Assembly: GCF_035593345.1 (NCBI RefSeq)
Contig: NZ_CP141606.1
Span: 2,480,001 to 2,544,000, forward strand
Length of the DNA stretch: 64,000 nt
Source of the DNA: Lelliottia sp. JS-SCA-14
GTDB taxonomy: Bacteria > Pseudomonadota > Gammaproteobacteria > Enterobacterales > Enterobacteriaceae
Reading direction: 5' to 3'
Under the pieces are notes generated by a model. It was not told the DNA's origin and ran no database searches. It was given only the letters and a program-made list of their open reading frames with translations. Of this stretch, positions 28,187 to 38,411 are shown one piece after another (the first letter of the stretch is position 1; the number at the start of each line of letters is the position of its first letter). The translations under genes and the position numbers were made by a program.

Positions 28187-28627
28187 ATGCATCTCTATAC
28201 GGGACGCTGCTTGTGCGGGATGAGCCATTTTAGCGTCAACATCGAAGCGCTCGATGTCTATGCCTGCCACTGCACCAACTGTCAGAAGTGGTCGGGCGGT
28301 ATTGCCATGTATCTGGAAACCCAGGGCGAACCCATTGTCGAAAGCGGTTCGATTGCCCCTTCGCACTTCTCATCTTCCGCGCGCGGTGAACGCTGGTTCT
28401 GCCCCGGCTGCGGCTGTCCGCTGTGGTTTGAACTCACCCCCACCGGGCGCTATTTTGTCCCCTGGACGCTGCTCGAGCTGAACGAAGACGATCGTCGTCG
28501 CCTGGTGCTGGCCGCCGAAATCTATACGGAAACGCAACCGGCCTTCTGGCGCCTCACCGGCCAGTACGCCCGATTCAGCGGCACCGAAATCGAAGCCCTG
28601 GATAAGCACTGCTCGTTTACACCGTAA
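28187..28627 (+). CDS. GFA-family zinc-binding protein
   Basis: A 146-residue protein of the GFA (glutathione-dependent formaldehyde-activating enzyme-like) fold. GRCLCGMSHF gives the first CxC. ACHCTNCQKWSG gives the structural CxxC cluster. WFCPGCGCPLWFEL gives the last pair. Start at 28187 behind AAAGGAG. The family binds zinc; only some members are tied to glutathione-formaldehyde chemistry, so no reaction is assigned. Its 3' end overlaps the convergent LysR gene by 11 bp. Confidence 0.85.
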   Translation: MHLYTGRCLCGMSHFSVNIEALDVYACHCTNCQKWSGGIAMYLETQGEPIVESGSIAPSHFSSSARGERWFCPGCGCPLWFELTPTGRYFVPWTLLELNEDDRRRLVLAAEIYTETQPAFWRLTGQYARFSGTEIEALDKHCSFTP

Positions 28628-29555
28628 CGCTGCCCGCCGCGCGGCGGAGCCAGGCTTGCAGCAGTTTGCCATCCTCGGTCATGTCCGAATCCTGACGGAC
28701 GCACAGATAATAATCGCGCCCGTCATCGATGGGAGCATCGAAGATTTTCACCAGCTCGCCGCTCTCCAGATAGGGCGCGATCAGCGGCTCGCGCATAAGC
28801 GCACAGCCGAGCCCCGCCTGAACGCCCGCCAGAGTCAGTAATCCATCCTCAAACAGCGGACCACTCTTGCGCGCTGTCCGTTTCACGCCCTGCTGGATAA
28901 ACCACTGTTGCCAGGTACTGCGCTCTTCATCGTGCAGAAGCGGCATTTGCAGCAGCTGTTCCGGGGTGTCGATATGCCCGTGAATGCGCAAAAACGCCCG
29001 GCTGCACACCGGCACCATCTGCCCGGAAATCAGTTTTTCGCTCTGATACCCCGCCCACTGGCCGTTACCAAAGCGAATCGACATATCCGACGCGTCGCTG
29101 AGATAGTTGCGATGGTTGGCATACACGACGTTAATTTCCGTCTGCGGGTTGGCGCGCATAAACGCGGGCAGACGCGGAATAAACCAGCCCATGCCAAACA
29201 GCGGGATCAGGCTGATGGTCACCTGACGCGTCTGGGCCTGCTCCACCAGATGCTCCGTCGCCTGGCGCAGGACGTTAAACGCCGCGCGGATCGAGCGGTA
29301 ATAGTCACGCCCCTGCTGGCTCAGGATCAGCCTGCGCCCCTGACGCTCCGTGAGCGGCATTTGCAGATACCCTTCCAGCACCTTGAGCTGATGGCTCACG
29401 GCAGAGGGCGATATCGCCAGCTCCTGCGCCGCCAGGGTGACGCTCCCCAGGCGGGCGATCGCCTCGAAAGCGCGCACGGCCCGCAGGGGCGGATCGTTCG
29501 CCAGACGGCTTTCCGCATACGCAGGCAGCTGGAGTGATTGTTCTGTTTTATTCAT
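28617..29555 (-). CDS. LysR family transcriptional regulator (GcvA-like)
   Basis: A 312-residue LysR protein. The N-terminal winged helix is LRAVRAFEAIARLGSVTLAAQELAISPSAVSHQLKVLEGYL (about residues 24-64). A linker helix and a periplasmic-binding-like effector domain follow (ISLIPLFGMGWFIPRLPAFMRANPQTEINVVYANH). The FxxAARLGSVTxAAxELxxSPSAVSHQ pattern is of the GcvA/AmpR type. It diverges from the seven-gene operon starting at 29727 and is its likely activator, perhaps responding to the imported substrate or a product. That link is positional inference. Confidence 0.9.
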   Translation of the reverse strand: MNKTEQSLQLPAYAESRLANDPPLRAVRAFEAIARLGSVTLAAQELAISPSAVSHQLKVLEGYLQMPLTERQGRRLILSQQGRDYYRSIRAAFNVLRQATEHLVEQAQTRQVTISLIPLFGMGWFIPRLPAFMRANPQTEINVVYANHRNYLSDASDMSIRFGNGQWAGYQSEKLISGQMVPVCSRAFLRIHGHIDTPEQLLQMPLLHDEERSTWQQWFIQQGVKRTARKSGPLFEDGLLTLAGVQAGLGCALMREPLIAPYLESGELVKIFDAPIDDGRDYYLCVRQDSDMTEDGKLLQAWLRRAAGSVTV

Positions 29556-29726
29556 ATGTTGATTTTATTGGTCTCTTTCTGTCCAAATGACGATTAACTA
29601 TTCTCTTTAAAATCATTGTGATAAATCAATCTCGAAATATCATAAGAAATAATATATGCGTATTTTACAATTTAATTCAATTGTCGGATGTTACCCGCTG
29701 AAAGAGCAATCTGTCGGGTAAACACA

Positions 29727-30677
29727 TTGGATACACTGATACAACAACTGATCAATGGCGTGATGCTGGGCAGCATCTACGCGCTGATCGCGCTGGGCTA
29801 TACGATGGTGTATGGCATTTTGCGCATCATTAACTTCGCCCATGGCGACATTTTGATGGTCGGCGCGCTCACCACGCTGTCGGCCCTGAACGCGCTGAAC
29901 AGCACATTCCCACACATGCCGCAGCTATTGCAGCTCGGCTTTGCGCTGGTCATTGCCATGGCCGTCTGCGCCCTGCTGGCGATGGCGGTGGAGCGCTTCG
30001 CCTACCGCCGCCTGCGCAACGCCCCGCGTCTGGCGCCGCTGATCTCCGGGATTGGCGTCTCCGTCTTGCTGCAAACCGTGGCGATGATTATCTGGACGCG
30101 CAACCCGCTGATGTTCCCACAAATCCTGCCGATGGACGCGATTTCCGTCACCTCGGGCAGCGTTGACCATCCTCCGGCCATTGTGACGGTCACAGGCATC
30201 GTCACCGTGTCGCTGGCGCTGATCGTGATGATCGGCCTGTGGCTGCTCGTGGAATACACCCGTCTTGGACGCGGGATGCGCGCGGTGGCGGAAAACCCGC
30301 GCGTCGCCACGCTGATGGGCGTCAACCCCAACGCCATTATCACCCTCACCTTCGCCATCGGCGGCATCTTCGCGGCCCTCGCAGGGGTGATGATGGCCAG
30401 CAACTACGGCAACGCCAGTTTCTCGATGGGCTTTCTGCCCGGCATCAAAGCCTTCACTGCCGCCGTGCTGGGCGGGATCGGCAATATTCGCGGCGCGATG
30501 ATCGGCGGGATTTTACTCGGGATCATCGAAGCGCTGGGCGCAGGCTATCTGGGTGAACTGACAAATGGCGTGTTCGGGAGTAACTATCAGGACGTCTTCG
30601 CCTTCATCGTGCTGATTCTGGTACTGGTATTCCGTCCGGCAGGTCTGCTGGGCGAACGCGTGGCGCACAGGGCGTAG
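29727..30677 (+). CDS. Branched-chain-type ABC transporter permease, LivH-like
   Basis: A 316-residue permease. DTLIQQLINGVMLGSIYALIALGYTMVYGILRIINFAHGDILMVG is the standard LivH/UrtB opening with the NFAHGD motif, and GAMIGGILLGIIEALGAGY lies near the C-terminus. I favour the TTG at 29727, because family proteins begin (M)DTLIQQ; an in-frame ATG at 29688 adds 13 atypical residues. First gene of an operon with LivM, LivG, LivF and LivK homologues and two hydrolases. Confidence 0.88.
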   Translation: MDTLIQQLINGVMLGSIYALIALGYTMVYGILRIINFAHGDILMVGALTTLSALNALNSTFPHMPQLLQLGFALVIAMAVCALLAMAVERFAYRRLRNAPRLAPLISGIGVSVLLQTVAMIIWTRNPLMFPQILPMDAISVTSGSVDHPPAIVTVTGIVTVSLALIVMIGLWLLVEYTRLGRGMRAVAENPRVATLMGVNPNAIITLTFAIGGIFAALAGVMMASNYGNASFSMGFLPGIKAFTAAVLGGIGNIRGAMIGGILLGIIEALGAGYLGELTNGVFGSNYQDVFAFIVLILVLVFRPAGLLGERVAHRA

Positions 30678-30685
30678 GGGAAATT

Positions 30686-31792
30686 ATGACAACCACTTCA
30701 CTCCAGGCTCCTGCCTCTTCGCGCCGCTTCTGGTCCGGCATGACGCTGTTCGTCATCGCCCTGCTGGTTGCGCCGATAGTCGCCAGCCAGATCGGCGGCA
30801 ACTACTGGGTGCGCGTGATCGACTTTGCGCTGCTGTACATCATGCTGGCGCTCGGGCTGAACATCGTCGTCGGCTACACCGGCCTGCTGGATATGGGCTT
30901 TATCGCCTTTTACGCGGTCGGGGCCTATCTGGCAGCGCTGCTGGCCTCCCCGCATCTGCTGGAGGTCTTCCCGATCCTCAGCGTCTGGTTCCCGGACGGG
31001 CTGCACACTTCGTATCTGCTGATTATTCCGCTGGCGGCGCTGGTCGCGGCGGTGTGCGGCATTATCCTCGGCGCGCCGACGCTAAAATTGCGCGGCGACT
31101 ATCTGGCGATTGTCACCCTCGGCTTCGGGGAGATCATCCGCATTCTGATGCGCAATCTCGACCGCCCGGTGAATATCACCAACGGTGCGAAAGGCATAAC
31201 CGGCGTCGATACCCTCAATCTGTTTGGCCTGAAATTTAGCGGCGTCTATCACTGGTTTGGCATGAAAGTCCCGGCTCTGTGGCTGTGGTACTACCTGCTG
31301 ATGCTGGTGATTGTGCTGATTATTTTTGTCTGCCTGCGCCTGCAACACTCGCGCATTGGCCGGGCGTGGCATGCCATTCGTGAAGATGAGGACGTGGCCC
31401 GCGCGATGGGCATCAACGTGCGTAACTATAAACTGCTGGCCTTTGCGATGGGCGCCTCCTTTGGCGGCGTGGCAGGTGCGTTGTTCGGTGCTTTCCAGGG
31501 CTTCGTGTCGCCAGAATCCTTCACCCTGCAAGAGTCCATTGCCGTGCTGGCGATGGTGGTACTCGGCGGGATGGGCCACATCCCTGGCGTGATCCTCGGC
31601 GCGGTGCTCCTGACCGCCCTGCCGGAAATCCTGCGCAGCCAGGCGGCACCCGTTCAGCAGGCGCTGTTTGGCACCGTGCTGATCGACCCGGAAATTCTGC
31701 GTCAGCTGTTCTACGGCCTGGCGCTGGTGCTGGTGATGCTCCTGCGCCCGTCCGGAATCTGGCCGGTCCGTCACAAGGAGGTCAACGCATGA
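30686..31792 (+). CDS. Branched-chain-type ABC transporter permease, LivM-like
   Basis: A 368-residue membrane protein with the LivM features YIMLALGLNIVVGYTGLLDMGFIAFYAVGAYLAALL (about residues 50-85) and LKLRGDYLAIVTLGFGEIIRILMRNL. A long C-terminal part includes AMGINVRNYKLLAFAMGASFGGVAGALFG. It pairs with the LivH-like subunit. Its stop overlaps the next gene's start by 4 bp. Confidence 0.92.
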   Translation: MTTTSLQAPASSRRFWSGMTLFVIALLVAPIVASQIGGNYWVRVIDFALLYIMLALGLNIVVGYTGLLDMGFIAFYAVGAYLAALLASPHLLEVFPILSVWFPDGLHTSYLLIIPLAALVAAVCGIILGAPTLKLRGDYLAIVTLGFGEIIRILMRNLDRPVNITNGAKGITGVDTLNLFGLKFSGVYHWFGMKVPALWLWYYLLMLVIVLIIFVCLRLQHSRIGRAWHAIREDEDVARAMGINVRNYKLLAFAMGASFGGVAGALFGAFQGFVSPESFTLQESIAVLAMVVLGGMGHIPGVILGAVLLTALPEILRSQAAPVQQALFGTVLIDPEILRQLFYGLALVLVMLLRPSGIWPVRHKEVNA

Positions 31793-32556
31793 GCCTGTTA
31801 ACCGTGCGTAATATGTCTAAACGCTTTGGTGGCCTGACCGCCGTGGACGACGTTTCGCTCTCCATTCATAAAGGCGAAATCTACGGTCTGATCGGCCCCA
31901 ACGGCGCAGGCAAAACCACCTGTTTTAACCTGATCACCGGCCTCTATCCGGCGGATAGCGGCGAGTTTTCGATTGCCGATAAACCCTATTTCCCGAAGCA
32001 GATCGACAAAGTCACTGCCGCCGGTATCGCGCGCACTTTTCAGAACGTGCGTCTGTTTAACGAAATGTCGGTGCTGGAGAACGTGATGGTCGGTCGCCAC
32101 GTGCGCACCCGCAACGGGCTCTGGGCGGCACTATCGCGCCATCAACGCGCCCGCGATGAGGAGGCACAAACCCGCGAGCTGGCCTGGCACTGGCTGGAGT
32201 ATACCGGAATCGCCCGATTCGCCCACTATCGCGCCTGCGACCTGGCATACGGCCATCAGCGTCGACTGGAGATCGCCCGCGCGCTGGCGACCGACCCGCT
32301 GCTGCTGGCGCTCGATGAACCGGCTGCGGGCATGAATGCCGCAGAAAAAAACGCCCTCGGCGAACTGCTCACCCGCATTCGGGACGACGGCAAAACGCTG
32401 CTGATGATAGAGCACGACGTTAAGCTGGTGATGGGGATCTGCGACCGCCTTACGGTGCTGGATTACGGCAAAACCCTGGCCGTCGGCACGCCCGACACGG
32501 TACGGCGAGACCCGGCGGTGATCGCTGCCTGGCTTGGAGGCAACGCCCATGTCTGA
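31789..32556 (+). CDS. Branched-chain-type ABC transporter ATPase, LivG-like
   Basis: A 255-residue ATPase with Walker A GPNGAGKTT near residue 35, signature region LAYGHQRRLEIARAL, Walker B LLLALDEPAAGMN and switch histidine LMIEHDVKLVMGIC. The degenerate signature (YGHQRR) is typical of LivG. ATGA overlap with the permease upstream and 8-bp overlap with the LivF gene downstream. Confidence 0.93.
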   Translation: MSLLTVRNMSKRFGGLTAVDDVSLSIHKGEIYGLIGPNGAGKTTCFNLITGLYPADSGEFSIADKPYFPKQIDKVTAAGIARTFQNVRLFNEMSVLENVMVGRHVRTRNGLWAALSRHQRARDEEAQTRELAWHWLEYTGIARFAHYRACDLAYGHQRRLEIARALATDPLLLALDEPAAGMNAAEKNALGELLTRIRDDGKTLLMIEHDVKLVMGICDRLTVLDYGKTLAVGTPDTVRRDPAVIAAWLGGNAHV

Positions 32557-33268
32557 ATTACTCAAAGTCGAACGCCTGGACGTGCATTACGGCGGGATCC
32601 AGGCAGTGCGCGGCGTGTCGTTCACCCTGCAGGAGGGCGAACAGGCAACGCTGATTGGTGCTAATGGCGCGGGCAAAAGCTCAACCGTGCGCGCCATCAC
32701 CGGGCTGGAAAACTTCGGCGGCAACATTCTGTTTAACGGCCAGCCGGTGCGCAAACGCAAGTCCGAAGCCTTGCTGCGCGACGGGCTGGTGATGGTCCCG
32801 GAAGGTCGTGGCATCTTCGCCCGCATGACGGTGCTGGAGAATTTACAGATGGGCGCCTGGCTGCGCCGTGACACTGTCACAGTAAAAAGCGAAATGGACG
32901 CGATTTTCGACCGTTTCCCTCGCCTCGGCGAACGTCAACATCAGCTCGCCGGGCTGCTTTCCGGCGGTGAACAGCAGCTGCTGGCGCTGAACCGCGCCCT
33001 GCTCAGCCGTCCGCGCCTGCTGATCCTCGATGAGCCGTCGATGGGGCTGGCTCCGAAAATGGTCGAGAACATTTTTCAGGTTATCAAAGGGCTGCGCGAA
33101 CGCGGCGTGGCCCTGCTGCTGATCGAACAAAACGCCCGGCTGGCGCTGGAAGTGACGGACCAGGCCTGGGTGATGGACAGCGGCAGCATCGTGCATCACG
33201 GCGAATCAAAAGCGCTGCTCGATGACGACCAGATTGCACAGATTTATTTGGGCGAAATGCCCGTTTAA
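32549..33268 (+). CDS. Branched-chain-type ABC transporter ATPase, LivF-like
   Basis: A 239-residue ATPase with Walker A GANGAGKSS near residue 38, signature LSGGEQQLLALNRAL, Walker B LLILDEPSMGLAP and LLIEQNARLAL at the switch region. The start is taken at the ATG at 32549, which overlaps the LivG stop and begins MSELLKVERLDVHYGGIQ. Forms the ATPase pair with the LivG-like subunit. Confidence 0.93.
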   Translation: MSELLKVERLDVHYGGIQAVRGVSFTLQEGEQATLIGANGAGKSSTVRAITGLENFGGNILFNGQPVRKRKSEALLRDGLVMVPEGRGIFARMTVLENLQMGAWLRRDTVTVKSEMDAIFDRFPRLGERQHQLAGLLSGGEQQLLALNRALLSRPRLLILDEPSMGLAPKMVENIFQVIKGLRERGVALLLIEQNARLALEVTDQAWVMDSGSIVHHGESKALLDDDQIAQIYLGEMPV

Positions 33269-33296
33269 CACACCAACCAACACCAGGGAAATTATA

Positions 33297-34454
33297 ATGA
33301 AAACCTTAAAAATCAGTGCGCTCAGCGCCGCGCTTTTGCTCAGTGGTTTTGCCTCCTCCGCCTCATGGGCGGCCCAGAGCGAAACCGTCATCATCGGCCT
33401 GGCAGGCCCGCTCACCGGCCCTTCCGCGCGTATCGGGAAGGATCTGGAGAACGGCGCACAGCTGGCGATCGATGACATCAACAAACAGCACCCGACCATC
33501 GGCGGCAAAGCGGTGACCTTCAAACTGCAGTCCGAAGATGACCAGTCCGACCCGCGCACCGCCGTGGCCGTCGCGCAGCGTCTGGTCGACAGCGGCGTGG
33601 CAGGTGTGGTCGGCCACTGGAACACCGGGACCAGCATTCCGGCGGCGCGTGTCTATCATGACGCCGGGATCGCCCAGGTCGCGCCTGTCGCCACCGGTCA
33701 CGCCTATACCAAACAGGGCTTTGACACCAGTTTCCGCGTGATGGGGCACGACGATGACGGTGGGCAGTTCGCGGGCGAATATGCGGTGAAAACCCTGAAA
33801 GCCAAACGCATCGCGGTGATCGACGACCGCACCGCCTTCGGCCAGGGCCTGGCAGATGAATTCATCAAATCGCTGGAAGCACAGGGCGTGAAGATTGTTG
33901 ACCGTCAGTACGTTGACGACAAAACCGTCGACTTTAGCGCCGTGTTAACCGCCATTCGCAGTAAAAACGCCGATCTGGTGTTCTTCGGTGGTGTGGACAG
34001 CCAGGCCGCTCCGCTGGCGCGTCGCATCAAGCAGCTGAATATGAACGCCACGCTGATGGGCGCAGGCGGCTTCGTCAGCCAGACCTTCCTGCAGCTGGCC
34101 CAGAAAGAAGGCGAAGGTGTAGTGGCGTTAGAGCCAGGCCTGCCGGTCGACCAGATGCCGGGCGGCAAAGCTTTCGAGCAGGCGTACCAGTCCCGCTACC
34201 ACACCCATATCGAACTGCACGCCCCGTTCGCCTATGACGCCACCCGCGTGCTGGTGGCGGCAATGGAAAAAGCCGACTCCGTCGATCCGTCTGAGTACCT
34301 GCCCGCCCTGCGCGCCATCAGCTATTCCGGCGTCACCGGCCAGATCGCTTTCGACGATCAGGGCAACCTGAAATCCCCGTCCTTTACCGTTTACAAAGTG
34401 GTCGACGGGAAATGGCAGCCGCAAACCGTTCTGGGCGGCGCAAAAACGAAGTAA
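33297..34454 (+). CDS. Periplasmic substrate-binding protein, LivK/branched-chain type
   Basis: A 385-residue precursor. Signal peptide MKTLKISALSAALLLSGFASSASWA is followed by the type I binding-protein fold (ETVIIGLAGPLTGPSARIGKDLENGAQLAIDDIN; GVVGHWNTGTSIPAARVYHDAGIAQVAPVATG; VIDDRTAFGQGLADEF). The start at 33297 is chosen because it opens the signal peptide. The ligand is not necessarily leucine/valine: the neighbours suggest a heterocyclic or N-carbamoyl amino acid. It is 28 bp after livF and 17 bp before the ATC-hydrolase-like gene. Confidence 0.9.
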   Translation: MKTLKISALSAALLLSGFASSASWAAQSETVIIGLAGPLTGPSARIGKDLENGAQLAIDDINKQHPTIGGKAVTFKLQSEDDQSDPRTAVAVAQRLVDSGVAGVVGHWNTGTSIPAARVYHDAGIAQVAPVATGHAYTKQGFDTSFRVMGHDDDGGQFAGEYAVKTLKAKRIAVIDDRTAFGQGLADEFIKSLEAQGVKIVDRQYVDDKTVDFSAVLTAIRSKNADLVFFGGVDSQAAPLARRIKQLNMNATLMGAGGFVSQTFLQLAQKEGEGVVALEPGLPVDQMPGGKAFEQAYQSRYHTHIELHAPFAYDATRVLVAAMEKADSVDPSEYLPALRAISYSGVTGQIAFDDQGNLKSPSFTVYKVVDGKWQPQTVLGGAKTK

Positions 34455-34471
34455 CGCAGTGAGGCAATGTG

Positions 34472-34954
34472 ATGAGCGATAACAATGAGCTGGGCATTCT
34501 CGCCCGCCGCAAAATAGAAGCAGAAATTATTAAACCCATTTACGAGATCCTGGTGCGCGAGATAGGGAAAACCCGCGCCCAGGCGGTGATTGGCGAAGCG
34601 ATAGAACAGGCGGCAATTGACGCCGGGGCGCATTTTGCCCGCCAGGAGCCGAACGGCGCGGATGTGAAAAGCTTTATCGCCCTGCAATATCTCTGGGAAA
34701 AAGATAACGCGCTGGACGTGAAAGTGATCGACGCCGACGACCAGCAGTACAACTACAACGTGACGCGCTGCCGCTACGCTGAGATGTATCACGAGATGGG
34801 GCTGGGCGAGATCGGCCACCTGCTCTCCTGCGCCCGCGATGAGAAATTCATCGTCGGCTACGCGCCGGACGTGGAACTGACGCGTACCACCACCATTATG
34901 CAGGGCGGAAAATGCTGTGATTTCCGCTATCACACCAAAAAGGACAAAGCATGA
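34472..34954 (+). CDS. L-2-amino-thiazoline-4-carboxylate (ATC) hydrolase family protein
   Basis: A 160-residue cytoplasmic protein that I recognise as a member of the ATC-hydrolase family (named for Pseudomonas AtcB). That enzyme opens 2-amino-thiazoline-4-carboxylate to N-carbamoyl-L-cysteine. Recognisable features are KIEAEIIKPIYEILVREIGKTRAQAVI, a TRCRYAEMYHEMGLGEIGHLLSCARDEKFIVGY block with conserved Cys and acidic residues, and a late TTTIMQGGKCCDFRY with CC. Family membership is from memory, not a search. The directly following N-carbamoyl amino acid hydrolase supports it. Start at the ATG at 34472; a GTG lies one codon upstream. Confidence 0.75.
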   Translation: MSDNNELGILARRKIEAEIIKPIYEILVREIGKTRAQAVIGEAIEQAAIDAGAHFARQEPNGADVKSFIALQYLWEKDNALDVKVIDADDQQYNYNVTRCRYAEMYHEMGLGEIGHLLSCARDEKFIVGYAPDVELTRTTTIMQGGKCCDFRYHTKKDKA

Positions 34955-36177
34955 TCCGCATCGATGCGCCGCGTCTGTGGACCACGCTTTCGATGATGGC
35001 GCAAATCGGCGGCACGCCTGCGGGCGGCGTGACCCGTCTGGCCCTGAGCGAAGAAGACCGCATCGCGCGCAATCTGCTGCGCGACTGGGCGCAGGAGGCG
35101 GGATTGTCCTGTGACGTCGACAGCATGGGCAATATGTTTATTCGACGCGCCGGGAAAAACCGCGCCCTGCCGCCGGTAATGACCGGCTCGCATGTGGATT
35201 CCCAGCCGCTCGGCGGCAATTACGACGGGATCTACGGCGTGCTGGCCGGGCTGGAAGTCCTGCGCACCCTGAACGACAACAGCGTTGAAACTGAGCGCGA
35301 CATCGTGCTGGTGAACTGGACCAACGAAGAAGGCGCCCGCTTCGCCCCGGCGATGCTGGCCTCCGGCGTCTGGTCCGGGCAGTTTAGCGAGGAATACGCC
35401 CTCGCCCGTGCGGACAGCGCGGGTGTGACCGTCGGCGAATCGCTGGATTCGATCGGTTATCGCGGTACCCAGCCTGCCCGCGCGTTTCCGATCCACGCCT
35501 GCTACGAACTGCACATTGAGCAAGGCCCGATTCTGGAAGACGAAGCGATTGATATCGGTCTGGTGCGCGCCGCGATGGGCCAGCGCTGGTTTACCCTGAC
35601 GCTGGACGGCTTTGCCGCGCACGCAGGCACCACGCCGATGCACAGCCGCCGCGACGCGTTAACTGCGTTTGCCGAGCTGGCGCTGATGGTGGAAGAGATC
35701 GGCTATCAGCACAAACCGGACGGCCGCGCGACCATCGGCATGGCGCAGATCACGCCGAACTCGCGCAACGTCGTGCCGTCGCGCGTGGTGTGCAGCGTGG
35801 AGTTTCGTCATCCTCAAAGCGAGGTGCTGGAAGCAATGGAAGTGGCGCTGCGTGAAGCCGCTGAAGGGCTGGCGACGCGAGGAGTCACGGCAAACGTTGA
35901 GCGGATCTTCGACTACGCGCCGATCGCGTTCGATGAAGCCTGTCTGGCGCGCAGTGAAAAAGCGGTCGAAGCCCTCGGCTATTCGGCAAAACCGATGGTT
36001 TCCGGTGCCGGGCACGACACCTGCTATATCAGCAAAATCGCCCCGGCGAGCATGATCTTTATTCCCTGCGAAAAAGGCATCAGCCACAACGAAGCGGAAA
36101 AGATCCTGCCCGAGTGGTCAGAGAAAGGGGCGAACGTGTTGCTGCACAGTGTGTTGAGCGCAGCACTCGAAAAATAA
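34951..36177 (+). CDS. N-carbamoyl-L-amino acid hydrolase / Zn-dependent amidase (M20, HyuC/AtcC type)
   Basis: A 408-residue M20 metallohydrolase of the carbamoylase/ureidoglycolate class. TGSHVDSQPLGGNYDGIYGVLAGLEVL has the first metal histidine and the bridging aspartate. WTNEEGARFAPAMLASGVW has the catalytic/metal glutamates. YELHIEQGPILE and SGAGHDTCYISKIAP supply later histidines. Beside an ATC-hydrolase-like gene it would cleave N-carbamoyl-L-cysteine to cysteine, CO2 and ammonia; other N-carbamoyl amino acids are possible. It overlaps the ATC gene by 4 bp and ends the operon. Confidence 0.85.
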   Translation: MIRIDAPRLWTTLSMMAQIGGTPAGGVTRLALSEEDRIARNLLRDWAQEAGLSCDVDSMGNMFIRRAGKNRALPPVMTGSHVDSQPLGGNYDGIYGVLAGLEVLRTLNDNSVETERDIVLVNWTNEEGARFAPAMLASGVWSGQFSEEYALARADSAGVTVGESLDSIGYRGTQPARAFPIHACYELHIEQGPILEDEAIDIGLVRAAMGQRWFTLTLDGFAAHAGTTPMHSRRDALTAFAELALMVEEIGYQHKPDGRATIGMAQITPNSRNVVPSRVVCSVEFRHPQSEVLEAMEVALREAAEGLATRGVTANVERIFDYAPIAFDEACLARSEKAVEALGYSAKPMVSGAGHDTCYISKIAPASMIFIPCEKGISHNEAEKILPEWSEKGANVLLHSVLSAALEK

Positions 36178-36196: not shown

Positions 36197-36229
36197 GTAG
36201 GCCTGGTAAGCGCAGCGCCACCAGGCTTT
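36197..36229. repeat. Single REP-like element between convergent genes
   Basis: GTAGGCCTGGTAAGCGCAGC leads into a hairpin, with GCCTGGT (36201-36207) pairing with ACCAGGC (36220-36226), the usual REP design. It lies between the ends of the carbamoylase and smvA and may terminate or stabilise both transcripts. Confidence 0.7.
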
Positions 36230-36232
36230 CTG

Positions 36233-37720
36233 TTACCTCTGCTCCACCTTCGCCAGGCTAAACCAAATCCCGGTCGCCAGTATCAGCAGCATGGCACCCG
36301 CGCTACCGAGCGCGACGCTGTGCGAGGTGATAAACGCGGTTTTGGCGGCCTCGATAGTGGCTTCGGCCAGCATCGGCGAGAGATCCTGCGCGACCTTCAC
36401 CGCTTCACCGATGGACGACGCGGCTTTTTCAGCCAGGGAACCGCTCAACTCTTGCGGCAGCTCGATAGACGCCGAGAAGCTGCGGGTGAGCAGCAGACCG
36501 AAAATCGCGATCCCAAGACCCGCGCCTAATTCGTAGGACATGGTTTCGATCGCACCTGCTGCGGCCGCTTTTTCCTTCGGTGCCGCCGCCATGATCGCAG
36601 CAGTTGAGGCCAGCAGTGCGCTTGCGGCGCTGAACCCCAGCAGCACCATCAGGCTCCAGGCCTGCCACTGCTGGGTGCTGAAATCGAGCATCGACAGCCC
36701 AATAAAGCTCACCGCACTCAGTCCCATACCGCCCGCCGCGACCAGTCGCAGCCCGAGTTTACCTACCAGCACGCCCGCAATCGGCCCGCTAAATCCGCTG
36801 GCGACCATCAGCGGCAGCATAAACATGCCCGCCTCAAACGGCGTAAAGCCGTGGACAAACTGCAGCTCCTGGGCCATCAGCAGTTCAAAGCCCACCAGGG
36901 CGATCATCGCGGTCATCGCCATCACCACGCCGCTCAAAATAATGCGGTGGCAGAACAGGCGCATGTCGATCATCGGCTTGCTGGCCCGCAGCTGGATGCG
37001 CACGAAGATAAACAGCATCAACGCGCCGGTCAGGAGGGTTCCCGTCACAATCGCCGGAGAAAGCGTGCCTTTGAGAGCGGTTTTAGCGCTGTAGACCAGC
37101 AGCAAAATCGCCACGATCAGCATCAGGGCATGAGAGATATTGAGCGTCTGCTCCGGGCGTCCCTGCTGTTTCGGTACAAAGTGCGCCGCCAGGGCGACCA
37201 CCACCACCACGATCGGGACGTTGATCAAAAACACCGATCCCCAGTAGAAGTGCTCCAGCAGCAGGCCACCGACCAGCGGACCAAATGCCGCCCCGCCGGA
37301 ACCGACCGCGGCCCAGACGCCTAACGCGATATTGCGGTGACGCGCCTCGACAAACAGGGTGCGAATACCCGCCAGGGTCGCCGGGATAATCATCGCCGCG
37401 CCAATCGCCAGCGTCGCACGGGCGGCAATCAGCCAGGCGGCGGACGGGGCAAACGCCGCGGCCAGGGACGACAGGCCGAACAGCACGCTGCCGAGCATCA
37501 GCAGCTTTTTAAAGCCAATGCGATCCCCAAGCGCGCCCATCGGCAGCACCATGCCCGCCATCACCAGCGAATAAATATCAATAATCCACAGCAATTCGTT
37601 ACCGCTGGCCCCGAGCGTCATACTCAGCGTCGGCGCGGCGACATGCAGTACCGTTGCGTCAATCGCGACCGGAATATAGACCAGCACGATAATCACTAAC
37701 GCTAACCACCTTTGAAACAT
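36233..37720 (-). CDS. smvA: MFS multidrug efflux pump SmvA (14-helix DHA2 family)
   Basis: A 495-residue transporter. LALVIIVLVYIPVAIDATVLHVAAPTL opens helix 1, GALGDRIGFKKLLMLGSV is the MFS signature loop, and about fourteen helices follow with GSVFLINVPIVVVVVALAAHFVP in the middle. Sequence and position next to a TetR gene and narU match SmvA, which in Salmonella and Klebsiella exports methyl viologen, acriflavine and cationic biocides. Divergent from smvR, with symmetric sites between the two. Confidence 0.88.
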   Translation of the reverse strand: MFQRWLALVIIVLVYIPVAIDATVLHVAAPTLSMTLGASGNELLWIIDIYSLVMAGMVLPMGALGDRIGFKKLLMLGSVLFGLSSLAAAFAPSAAWLIAARATLAIGAAMIIPATLAGIRTLFVEARHRNIALGVWAAVGSGGAAFGPLVGGLLLEHFYWGSVFLINVPIVVVVVALAAHFVPKQQGRPEQTLNISHALMLIVAILLLVYSAKTALKGTLSPAIVTGTLLTGALMLFIFVRIQLRASKPMIDMRLFCHRIILSGVVMAMTAMIALVGFELLMAQELQFVHGFTPFEAGMFMLPLMVASGFSGPIAGVLVGKLGLRLVAAGGMGLSAVSFIGLSMLDFSTQQWQAWSLMVLLGFSAASALLASTAAIMAAAPKEKAAAAGAIETMSYELGAGLGIAIFGLLLTRSFSASIELPQELSGSLAEKAASSIGEAVKVAQDLSPMLAEATIEAAKTAFITSHSVALGSAGAMLLILATGIWFSLAKVEQR

Positions 37721-37741
37721 AAATTTCCCTTTAAACTGAAT

Positions 37742-37806
37742 CTGGACACGTGTCCAGGATGCGATCCTACGGAAAGTTGAACGCGTGTCCAGCTTTTTGT
37801 TACACT
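37742..37806. promoter_or_regulatory. smvA-smvR divergent promoters and candidate SmvR operators
   Basis: CTGGACACGTGTCCAG (37742-37757) is a perfect 16-bp palindrome. TGAACGCGTGTCCA (37778-37791) repeats it with a degenerate left half. For smvR, TTGAAC (37777-37782) and TACACT (37801-37806) are 18 bp apart. For smvA on the minus strand, TGGACA (37791-37786) and TAGGAT (37769-37764) are 16 bp apart. The second site overlaps both -35 hexamers. Binding by SmvR is inferred. Confidence 0.6.
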
Positions 37807-37835
37807 CGTTTGGTCGCCATTGAGAGTGAGTTGAA

Positions 37836-38411
37836 ATGAGCTATTTGAGCAAGGACGAACGGCGGGAAGATATCCTGCAGGCCGCGATGCGCGTCGCGTT
37901 GAGCGAAGGGTTTAGCGCCATGACCGTGCGGCGCATTGCCGGCGAGGCCGGTATCGCTTCCGGACAGGTACATCACCACTTTGCCAGCGCTGGTGAGCTC
38001 AAATCCCTGGCCTTTGTGCGTCTGATTCGCGATCTGCTGGATGCCGAAATCGTCGGTGAAAACGCCGACTGGCGACAGCGCCTGCACGCCATGCTCGGCA
38101 GCGATGACGGCGCGTTCGAGCCCTACATCCGCCTGTGGCGGGAAGCGCAGATCCTCGCGAGTCGCGATCCGGAAATTAAAAGTGCCTATGTGGTGACGAT
38201 GGAAATGTGGCATCAGGAAACCGTCGCCATTATCCGCGCGGGCGCCGAGGCAAACGCCTTTACCCTCTCCGATCGCGCAGAGAATATCGCCTGGCGATTG
38301 ATTGGTTTAGTCTGCGGACTGGACGGTATCTATGTGTTAAATATGCCAGAAATGGATGACGCCGCCTTTAATAGCCATCTGGATAAATTAATTACCCTCG
38401 AATTGTTTTAA
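37836..38411 (+). CDS. smvR: TetR family repressor SmvR
   Basis: A 191-residue TetR protein. LSKDERREDILQAAMRVALSEGFSAMTVRRIAGEAGIASGQVHHHFASAGEL is the N-terminal helix-turn-helix with the YxYF-like VHHHF motif. The C-terminal ligand domain includes WHQETVAIIRAGAEANAF. Divergent position to smvA matches SmvR, which represses smvA and whose loss raises chlorhexidine tolerance in Klebsiella. A small stem (38410-38429) overlaps its stop. Confidence 0.85.
   Translation: MSYLSKDERREDILQAAMRVALSEGFSAMTVRRIAGEAGIASGQVHHHFASAGELKSLAFVRLIRDLLDAEIVGENADWRQRLHAMLGSDDGAFEPYIRLWREAQILASRDPEIKSAYVVTMEMWHQETVAIIRAGAEANAFTLSDRAENIAWRLIGLVCGLDGIYVLNMPEMDDAAFNSHLDKLITLELF

Follow-up and report, generated by a model that had tools for sequence, protein, structure and literature searches.

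The closest described counterpart of the locus treated here is the route of Pseudomonas sp. BS and ON-4a, by which the enzymes AtcB and AtcC convert 2-aminothiazoline-4-carboxylate (ATC) to L-cysteine. For strain BS, the pairing of atcB and atcC, their order and their products are reportedly established, and the two proteins are said to have masses of 19.5 and 44.7 kDa. The same pair of enzyme families is encoded within the window, the whole stretch of 64,000 nucleotides of Lelliottia sp. JS-SCA-14 (contig NZ_CP141606.1, positions 2,480,001 to 2,544,000) analysed here. In the window, an enterobacterial sequence, the pair is linked with genes for a Liv-type importer and a LysR-type regulator. 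The seven genes livHMGFK-atcB-atcC are read as an operon for the uptake and salvage of L-ATC, with a probability of about two in three. The route is already known from Pseudomonas, where five genomes carry a full operon like that of the window, and the operon is well supported as an instance of a known pathway, not as a new kind of system.

Two other described systems resemble parts of the locus. The LivKHMGF transporter of E. coli has the same five-part architecture and Pfam families as the window importer, although the window proteins score below the NCBIfam cut-offs and several ligand positions of the binding protein are changed. HyuC-type L-carbamoylases and N-carbamoyl-beta-alanine amidohydrolases (3N5F, 8C46, 5THW) share the M20 family and motifs of the window AtcC, whereas its partner gene in the window belongs to PF14196 and is not a hydantoinase or dihydropyrimidinase.

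The genes of the locus and the block that separates the regulator from the operon are listed by window coordinates:

28617-29555, minus strand: LysR-type regulator, GcvA/DsdC-like (PF00126 and PF03466; best NCBIfam model GcvA, 253.6, below the cut-off of 288)
29640-29697, plus strand: conserved non-coding block in the lysR-livH gap (intergenic alignment)
29727-30677, plus strand: livH, LivH-type permease with a TTG start (PF02653; LivH model 226.5, below the equivalog cut-off of 379)
30686-31792, plus strand: livM, LivM-type permease (PF02653; LivM model 268.5, below the cut-off of 366)
31789-32556, plus strand: livG, LivG-type ATPase (PF00005 and PF12399; LivG model 276.1, below the cut-off of 362)
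32549-33268, plus strand: livF, LivF-type ATPase (PF00005; LivF model 223.5, below the cut-off of 441)
33297-34454, plus strand: livK-type periplasmic binding protein, proposed ATC receptor (PF13458; branched-chain amino acid model NF011933, 226.3, below 477)
34472-34954, plus strand: atcB-like ATC hydrolase of 160 aa, proposed ring-opening enzyme (PF14196, 146.5 bits, cut-off 28.1)
34951-36177, plus strand: atcC-like gene, HyuC-type, 408 aa (Peptidase_M20; TIGR01879 396.6, cut-off 204)

A first-pass annotation of this stretch had described a LysR gene divergent from the seven-gene operon, an overlap of 4 bp between atcB and atcC, and labels of the LivH, LivM, LivG, LivF and LivK type for the transporter. 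All eight genes lie where it had placed them, the overlap is real (ATGA, 34951-34954), and the Pfam families agree with the transporter labels (PF02653 twice, PF00005 twice and PF13458). It had also called the 34472-34954 product a member of the ATC-hydrolase family and the last gene a HyuC-type carbamoylase; the PF14196 match, at 146.5 bits against a cut-off of 28.1, bears out the former, and M20 membership with a TIGR01879 score above its cut-off the latter. Further overlaps are found between livM and livG (4 bp) and between livG and livF (8 bp), and because of these short overlaps a single transcript for the seven genes is suggested.

Proposed pathway

We infer that the LivK-type protein captures L-ATC (L-2-aminothiazoline-4-carboxylate) in the periplasm, from where the LivHMGF-type ABC transporter would import it. 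AtcB would hydrolyse the ring at the C-S bond to give N-carbamoyl-L-cysteine. AtcC would then remove the carbamoyl group, with the release of L-cysteine, ammonia and CO2. Activation of the operon in the presence of ATC or an intermediate is the probable role of the divergent LysR protein. A natural source of ATC may be the reaction of cyanide with cystine. ATCA has been described as being in tautomeric equilibrium with ITCA, a product of cyanide and cystine, in the accessible text of one paper (PMC9291117). The parts of this pathway differ in strength. The enzyme family assignments are close to certain, and ring opening followed by decarbamoylation is very probable; ATC is the likely substrate.

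The two enzymes

The AtcB-like protein (18.1 kDa) matches PF14196 over profile positions 1-145 of 145, with an E value of 1.3e-42, and is the one match to this family in the genome of the window. The label ‘ATC hydrolase’ carried by public entries probably derives from the Pfam family. The AlphaFold model has a mean pLDDT of 91.6 and comprises two long helices followed by an alpha/beta part. The search for homologues gave 3547 matches, of which 120 were listed. Across 19 diverse members (the window protein, five listed homologues and 13 locus proteins) C100, G110, D123 and C149 are invariant, and E113 and C120 are nearly invariant when 61 members are aligned (the window protein, 47 listed homologues and the same 13). 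The cysteines of the window protein, C100, C120 and C149, would suit a metal site. PF14196 has been reported as similar to the V4R and HNOB domains and as holding three conserved cysteines, in the accessible text of PMC5847659. A sequence search of solved structures with AtcB gave no match, and the 61-member profile gave one match among structures, to a transposase fragment at E 0.36, which is probably due to chance.

The AtcC-like protein (44.1 kDa) falls within the hydantoinase/carbamoylase family of amidases, for which the TIGR01879 cut-off is set at subfamily level. It also passes NF006769, NF009527 and NF006771, models named allantoate amidohydrolase or Zn-dependent hydrolase. Two narrower identities were rejected: allantoate deiminase AllC (TIGR03176, 236 against an equivalog cut-off of 597.75) and the N-carbamyl-L-glutamate amidohydrolase ErtE (NF058540, 332.9 against an equivalog cut-off of 520). 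The best matches in the PDB are 5THW, 4WJB and 5I4M. Alignment with 8C46 shows the motifs that supply the metal and substrate ligands (TNEEG, LHIEQG, EFRHP with its Arg, and HNEAE). They correspond by motif, with an offset in numbering, to Glu131, Gln196, Arg291 and His385 of a carbamoyl-beta-alanine amidohydrolase, whose Glu, Gln, Arg and His residues are described in the accessible text of PMC10952681. PDB 4WJB, an entry named only as a putative amidohydrolase/peptidase, has the same sequence as the AtcC of a Burkholderia cenocepacia locus (L107:10503-11732) in all 409 residues printed.

The importer

Although the transporter has the architecture of a branched-chain amino acid importer, this label was rejected, as all five proteins miss the cut-offs of the corresponding NCBIfam LivH, LivM, LivG, LivF and LivK models. 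The urea transporter UrtABCDE was rejected likewise, on the scores of UrtA (33.3, below 492.75), UrtB (156.2, below 250.3), UrtC (111.4, below 296.2), UrtD (190.3, below 304.1) and UrtE (201.6, below 285.8).

The ligand contacts of LIVBP/LBP are taken here to be Tyr18, Tyr150, Tyr202, Glu226, Phe276 and Thr102. When the LivK-type protein is aligned with LIVBP, Tyr18 is replaced by Ile, Tyr150 by Phe, Tyr202 by Val, Glu226 by Gly and Phe276 by His308, while Thr102 is retained. The stretch IELHAPFAYD around His308 is identical in the 16 sequences shown. Such a pocket argues against leucine-like ligands, without naming the ligand. On balance the LivK-type protein is favoured as the ATC receptor, a little less firmly than ATC is as the substrate.

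Conservation as a unit

The scan of the collection returned 346 relatives, of which the best 80 named loci were kept, so that counts over these 80 favour close relatives. LysR, AtcB and AtcC occur together in every one of the 80, a LivK-type protein in 79 and LivHMGF in 57 (52 enterobacterial and five Pseudomonas). A chance arrangement is excluded, because the full gene order recurs in these 57 loci with AtcB proteins 71-99% identical to that of the window. The importer had been said at first pass to be linked genetically to both enzymatic steps, and these counts agree. The other 23 loci contain no LivHMGF in the fetched flanks, yet 22 of them (Burkholderia, Paraburkholderia and Herbaspirillum) retain the binding protein, which ties it to the enzymes. 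The sole locus of the 80 that has no LivK-type protein is that of Pantoea coffeiphila (L088), where LysR-AtcB-AtcC is followed by an arylmalonate decarboxylase/EutA-like protein and an NMT1-type binding protein.

These data bear on the possibility that the Liv-type genes encode a general amino acid importer which merely adjoins the enzymes, ATC entering the cell by another way. The P. coffeiphila locus, with no adjoining Liv-type match and an NMT1-type binding protein beside it, and the Burkholderia-type loci with no LivHMGF in their flanks would be in keeping with this. It is nonetheless decidedly unlikely: the binding protein accompanies the enzymes even in loci whose fetched flanks hold no LivHMGF, the LivK-type protein fails the branched-chain model by a wide interval (226.3 against 477), and its pocket departs from LIVBP at several positions, whereas the 16 sequences shown do not vary around His308.

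Also in favour of the proposed pathway, pairwise protein distances rise together for AtcB and LivK (Spearman 0.915, 3240 pairs), as they do for AtcB and LysR (0.861) and AtcB and AtcC (0.740), although shared ancestry alone yields much of these correlations. The distances were taken from 84 loci tried, with 83 values for AtcB, 82 for AtcC, 81 for LivK and 82 for LysR. The LivK proteins of enterobacteria and Pseudomonas share a mean identity of 76%.

The association of the two enzymes is constant among the closer relatives. Every locus read for context with an AtcB at least 61% identical to that of the window (the 80, with L125, L127, L131, L133, L134 and L145/L147) has an AtcC-like neighbour. 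Of 18 PF14196 loci beyond the 80 (L123-L140, most of them distant), eight showed an AtcC-like match and ten did not. Neighbouring genes were read in sets of 13, 11 and 8 loci, and the calling of open reading frames may miss or misplace genes. The group of high PF14196 scores (122-148 bits) was considered as a separate marker of the pathway and rejected, as it holds six proteins with no AtcC-like neighbour. The PF14196 score alone is therefore no mark of the pathway, which is marked instead by the AtcB-AtcC pair.

Members of racemase families occur near some of these genes. The EutA-like protein of P. coffeiphila (L088:11895-12662) belongs to the Asp/Glu racemase superfamily and is a possible ATC racemase; a protein similar to it is encoded in L091, about 6 kb away from AtcC. 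Another candidate ATC racemase, of the Asp/Glu/hydantoin racemase family (PF01177), is encoded at L126:8588-9265, after a PF14196 gene whose product is 46-48% identical to that of the window.

Cysteine-linked neighbours in relatives

In L131, where AtcB is 65% identical to that of the window, AtcC is followed on the same strand by a binding protein, a permease and an ATPase, which are 41%, 53% and 47% identical to TcyJ, TcyL and TcyN of E. coli. Their best NCBIfam matches are cystine models, at scores below the cut-offs. A fused binding protein-permease-ATPase stands just upstream of AtcB in L147. As a pointer to cysteine this is less strong: the ATPase part shares 49% identity with TcyN, but the other parts reach only 26-31%.

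A second link to cysteine is provided by a clade in which a CyuA-type desulfidase, an M20 amidohydrolase and a distant PF14196 protein are adjacent in all three loci (L135, L136 and L137). The CyuA-like proteins align with 96-97% of the length of E. coli CyuA, at 35-37% identity. A search for CyuA and TcyJLN covered 154 loci, many of them short or overlapping one another; the two from E. coli aside, these three alone gave a CyuA match. The likeness is to CyuPA of E. coli, with the difference that CyuA is absent from the operon of the window, whose product would be cysteine itself. The accessible text of a paper on CyuA (PMC12647591) contains no mention of thiazoline, carbamoyl or hydantoinase. 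The first-pass interpretation is partly supported as a whole; for cysteine as the end product, independent support comes from the neighbours in relatives, namely the cystine-type importer of L131 and the CyuA-type desulfidases of L135, L136 and L137.

The CyuA-type operons (L135:7312-11825, L136:6211-10724 and L137:7536-11993) encode, in order, the CyuA-like, M20 and PF14196 proteins and two small probable membrane proteins. In L136 the first of the latter is a DUF5058 protein, and a sigma-54 activator lies upstream.

Points against the pathway and other substrates

Several observations weigh against the salvage of ATC as proposed. The putative AtcB and AtcC are assigned at the level of family, and among the 120 listed homologues of Pseudomonas AtcC no shown name (many are blank or partial) mentions N-carbamoyl-cysteine. 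Nothing about the Liv-type transporter points directly to a sulfur compound. The operon includes no gene for an ATC racemase, so D-ATC would not be used and activity on one enantiomer is expected. A cystine-type transporter directly follows AtcC in L131 only; L085 and L087 also have TcyJLN-like matches, but on the opposite strand and several kb distant from AtcC, and these were not counted. The CyuA link does not represent three independent events, because the three genomes belong to one family and their PF14196 proteins are 73-77% identical to that of L136; the same proteins are only 15-17% identical to the AtcB of the window. Seven loci whose PF14196 proteins are 26-48% identical to it (L123, L124, L126, L128, L129, L130 and L132) have no AtcC-like match within 19 kb, although six of these proteins score 123-136 bits and one 95. 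In such loci the carbamoylase may be encoded elsewhere, or the substrate may differ.

The last point bears on an alternative in which the compound imported, and opened by the PF14196 protein, is some other cyclic amidine or ureide (a hydantoin, for instance, or an oxazoline or imidazoline analogue), the carbamoylase then freeing another amino acid. PF14196 is a broad family, with distant members in other settings such as next to an ABC transporter for polar amino acids and a ProC-like reductase (L138:5676-10968 and L139:5860-10477; family search in L139), and its seven members with no AtcC-like match nearby, six of them high-scoring, fit this as well. The M20 carbamoylases can take several N-carbamoyl substrates, and a broad range has been reported for one of them in the accessible text of PMC10952681. 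Against this, those neighbours that carry information on the substrate point to cystine or cysteine, and no hydantoinase was found among the ten window proteins searched; a substrate other than ATC is considered unlikely.

It is less likely still that ATC is the substrate and is opened to S-carbamoyl-L-cysteine, on which the M20 enzyme would act. According to the accessible text of a review (PMC10821248), the conversion of DL-ATC to L-cysteine in Pseudomonas proceeds by way of N-carbamoyl or S-carbamoyl cysteine, and the legend of its Figure 2, a further point against the proposed route, gives S-carbamoyl cysteine as the intermediate. The second enzyme belongs, however, to the family of N-carbamoyl amino acid amidohydrolases, and this makes the S-carbamoyl route very improbable. 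The cloned AtcB/AtcC pair of Pseudomonas is also said to have been assigned to the N-carbamoyl route.

Beyond the conversion of L-ATC by this operon, a broader role may be proposed tentatively. The operon could serve the dedicated salvage of the adduct of cyanide and cystine, with ATC imported, cysteine recovered, and the cyanide carbon and nitrogen ending as CO2 and ammonia. Modules of PF14196 and carbamoylase would then form a wider family of routes with varied importers, extended in one clade by a desulfidase to pyruvate, ammonia and sulfide.

Regulation and flanking genes

The LysR protein is a probable activator of the operon. The block at 29640-29697 is conserved across the 15 lysR-livH intergenic sequences that were aligned out of 58 available, all 15 of them enterobacterial, and is a probable regulator site and promoter.

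Downstream of the operon, an imperfect palindrome at 36201-36226 lies between the convergent atcC-like and smvA-like genes, and resembles what we take to be an enterobacterial REP element. The stretch that follows, 36233-38411, holds an SmvA-family efflux transporter (NCBIfam 882.9, cut-off 701) and, on the strand opposite to it, a small TetR-like regulator, labelled by eye only.

Distribution and significance

The operon is common, though its distribution is patchy. Among named relatives the nearest are Lelliottia, with AtcB proteins 99% identical, and of the 61 genomes of the genus, that of the window included, 39 carry an AtcB homologue. PF14196 matches occurred in 14 genomes of a sample of 198 from the family; a sample of 398 from the phylum gave 30, of which 29 score over the cut-off. 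With the AtcB of the window as query, six of 295 genomes of the order matched, one of them only at E 6e-4. A profile matched three of 369 genomes of the class, comprising that of the window and two others in which the match has an internal stop codon. The first-pass annotation had regarded the route as not usually described in such a bacterium, which may hold for the literature searched, but not for genomes, given its frequency in the genus and the 346 relatives.

At the DNA level, nothing close to the operon turned up among the 20,395 records (5,426 genomes) of the E. coli collection. Four plasmid records match it, two of which have operon-type genes annotated under the match: NZ_CP069321.1 and NZ_CP082343.1 (Kosakonia cowanii over 81% of the query and Pantoea dispersa over 55%), at about 75% DNA identity. 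The unit can therefore be plasmid-borne.

No description of a Liv-type ATC importer was found in the literature searched, which covered few subscription papers. There, ATC figures chiefly as an industrial precursor of cysteine and a marker of exposure to cyanide. With its importer, its regulator and its wide spread, the operon is a good test case. If the proposed pathway is true, many enterobacteria, pseudomonads and Burkholderia-type bacteria can import ATC and convert it to cysteine. The ATC hydrolase family would thereby gain a physiological role and structure 4WJB a function, and the bacterial loss of a cyanide biomarker would become directly testable.

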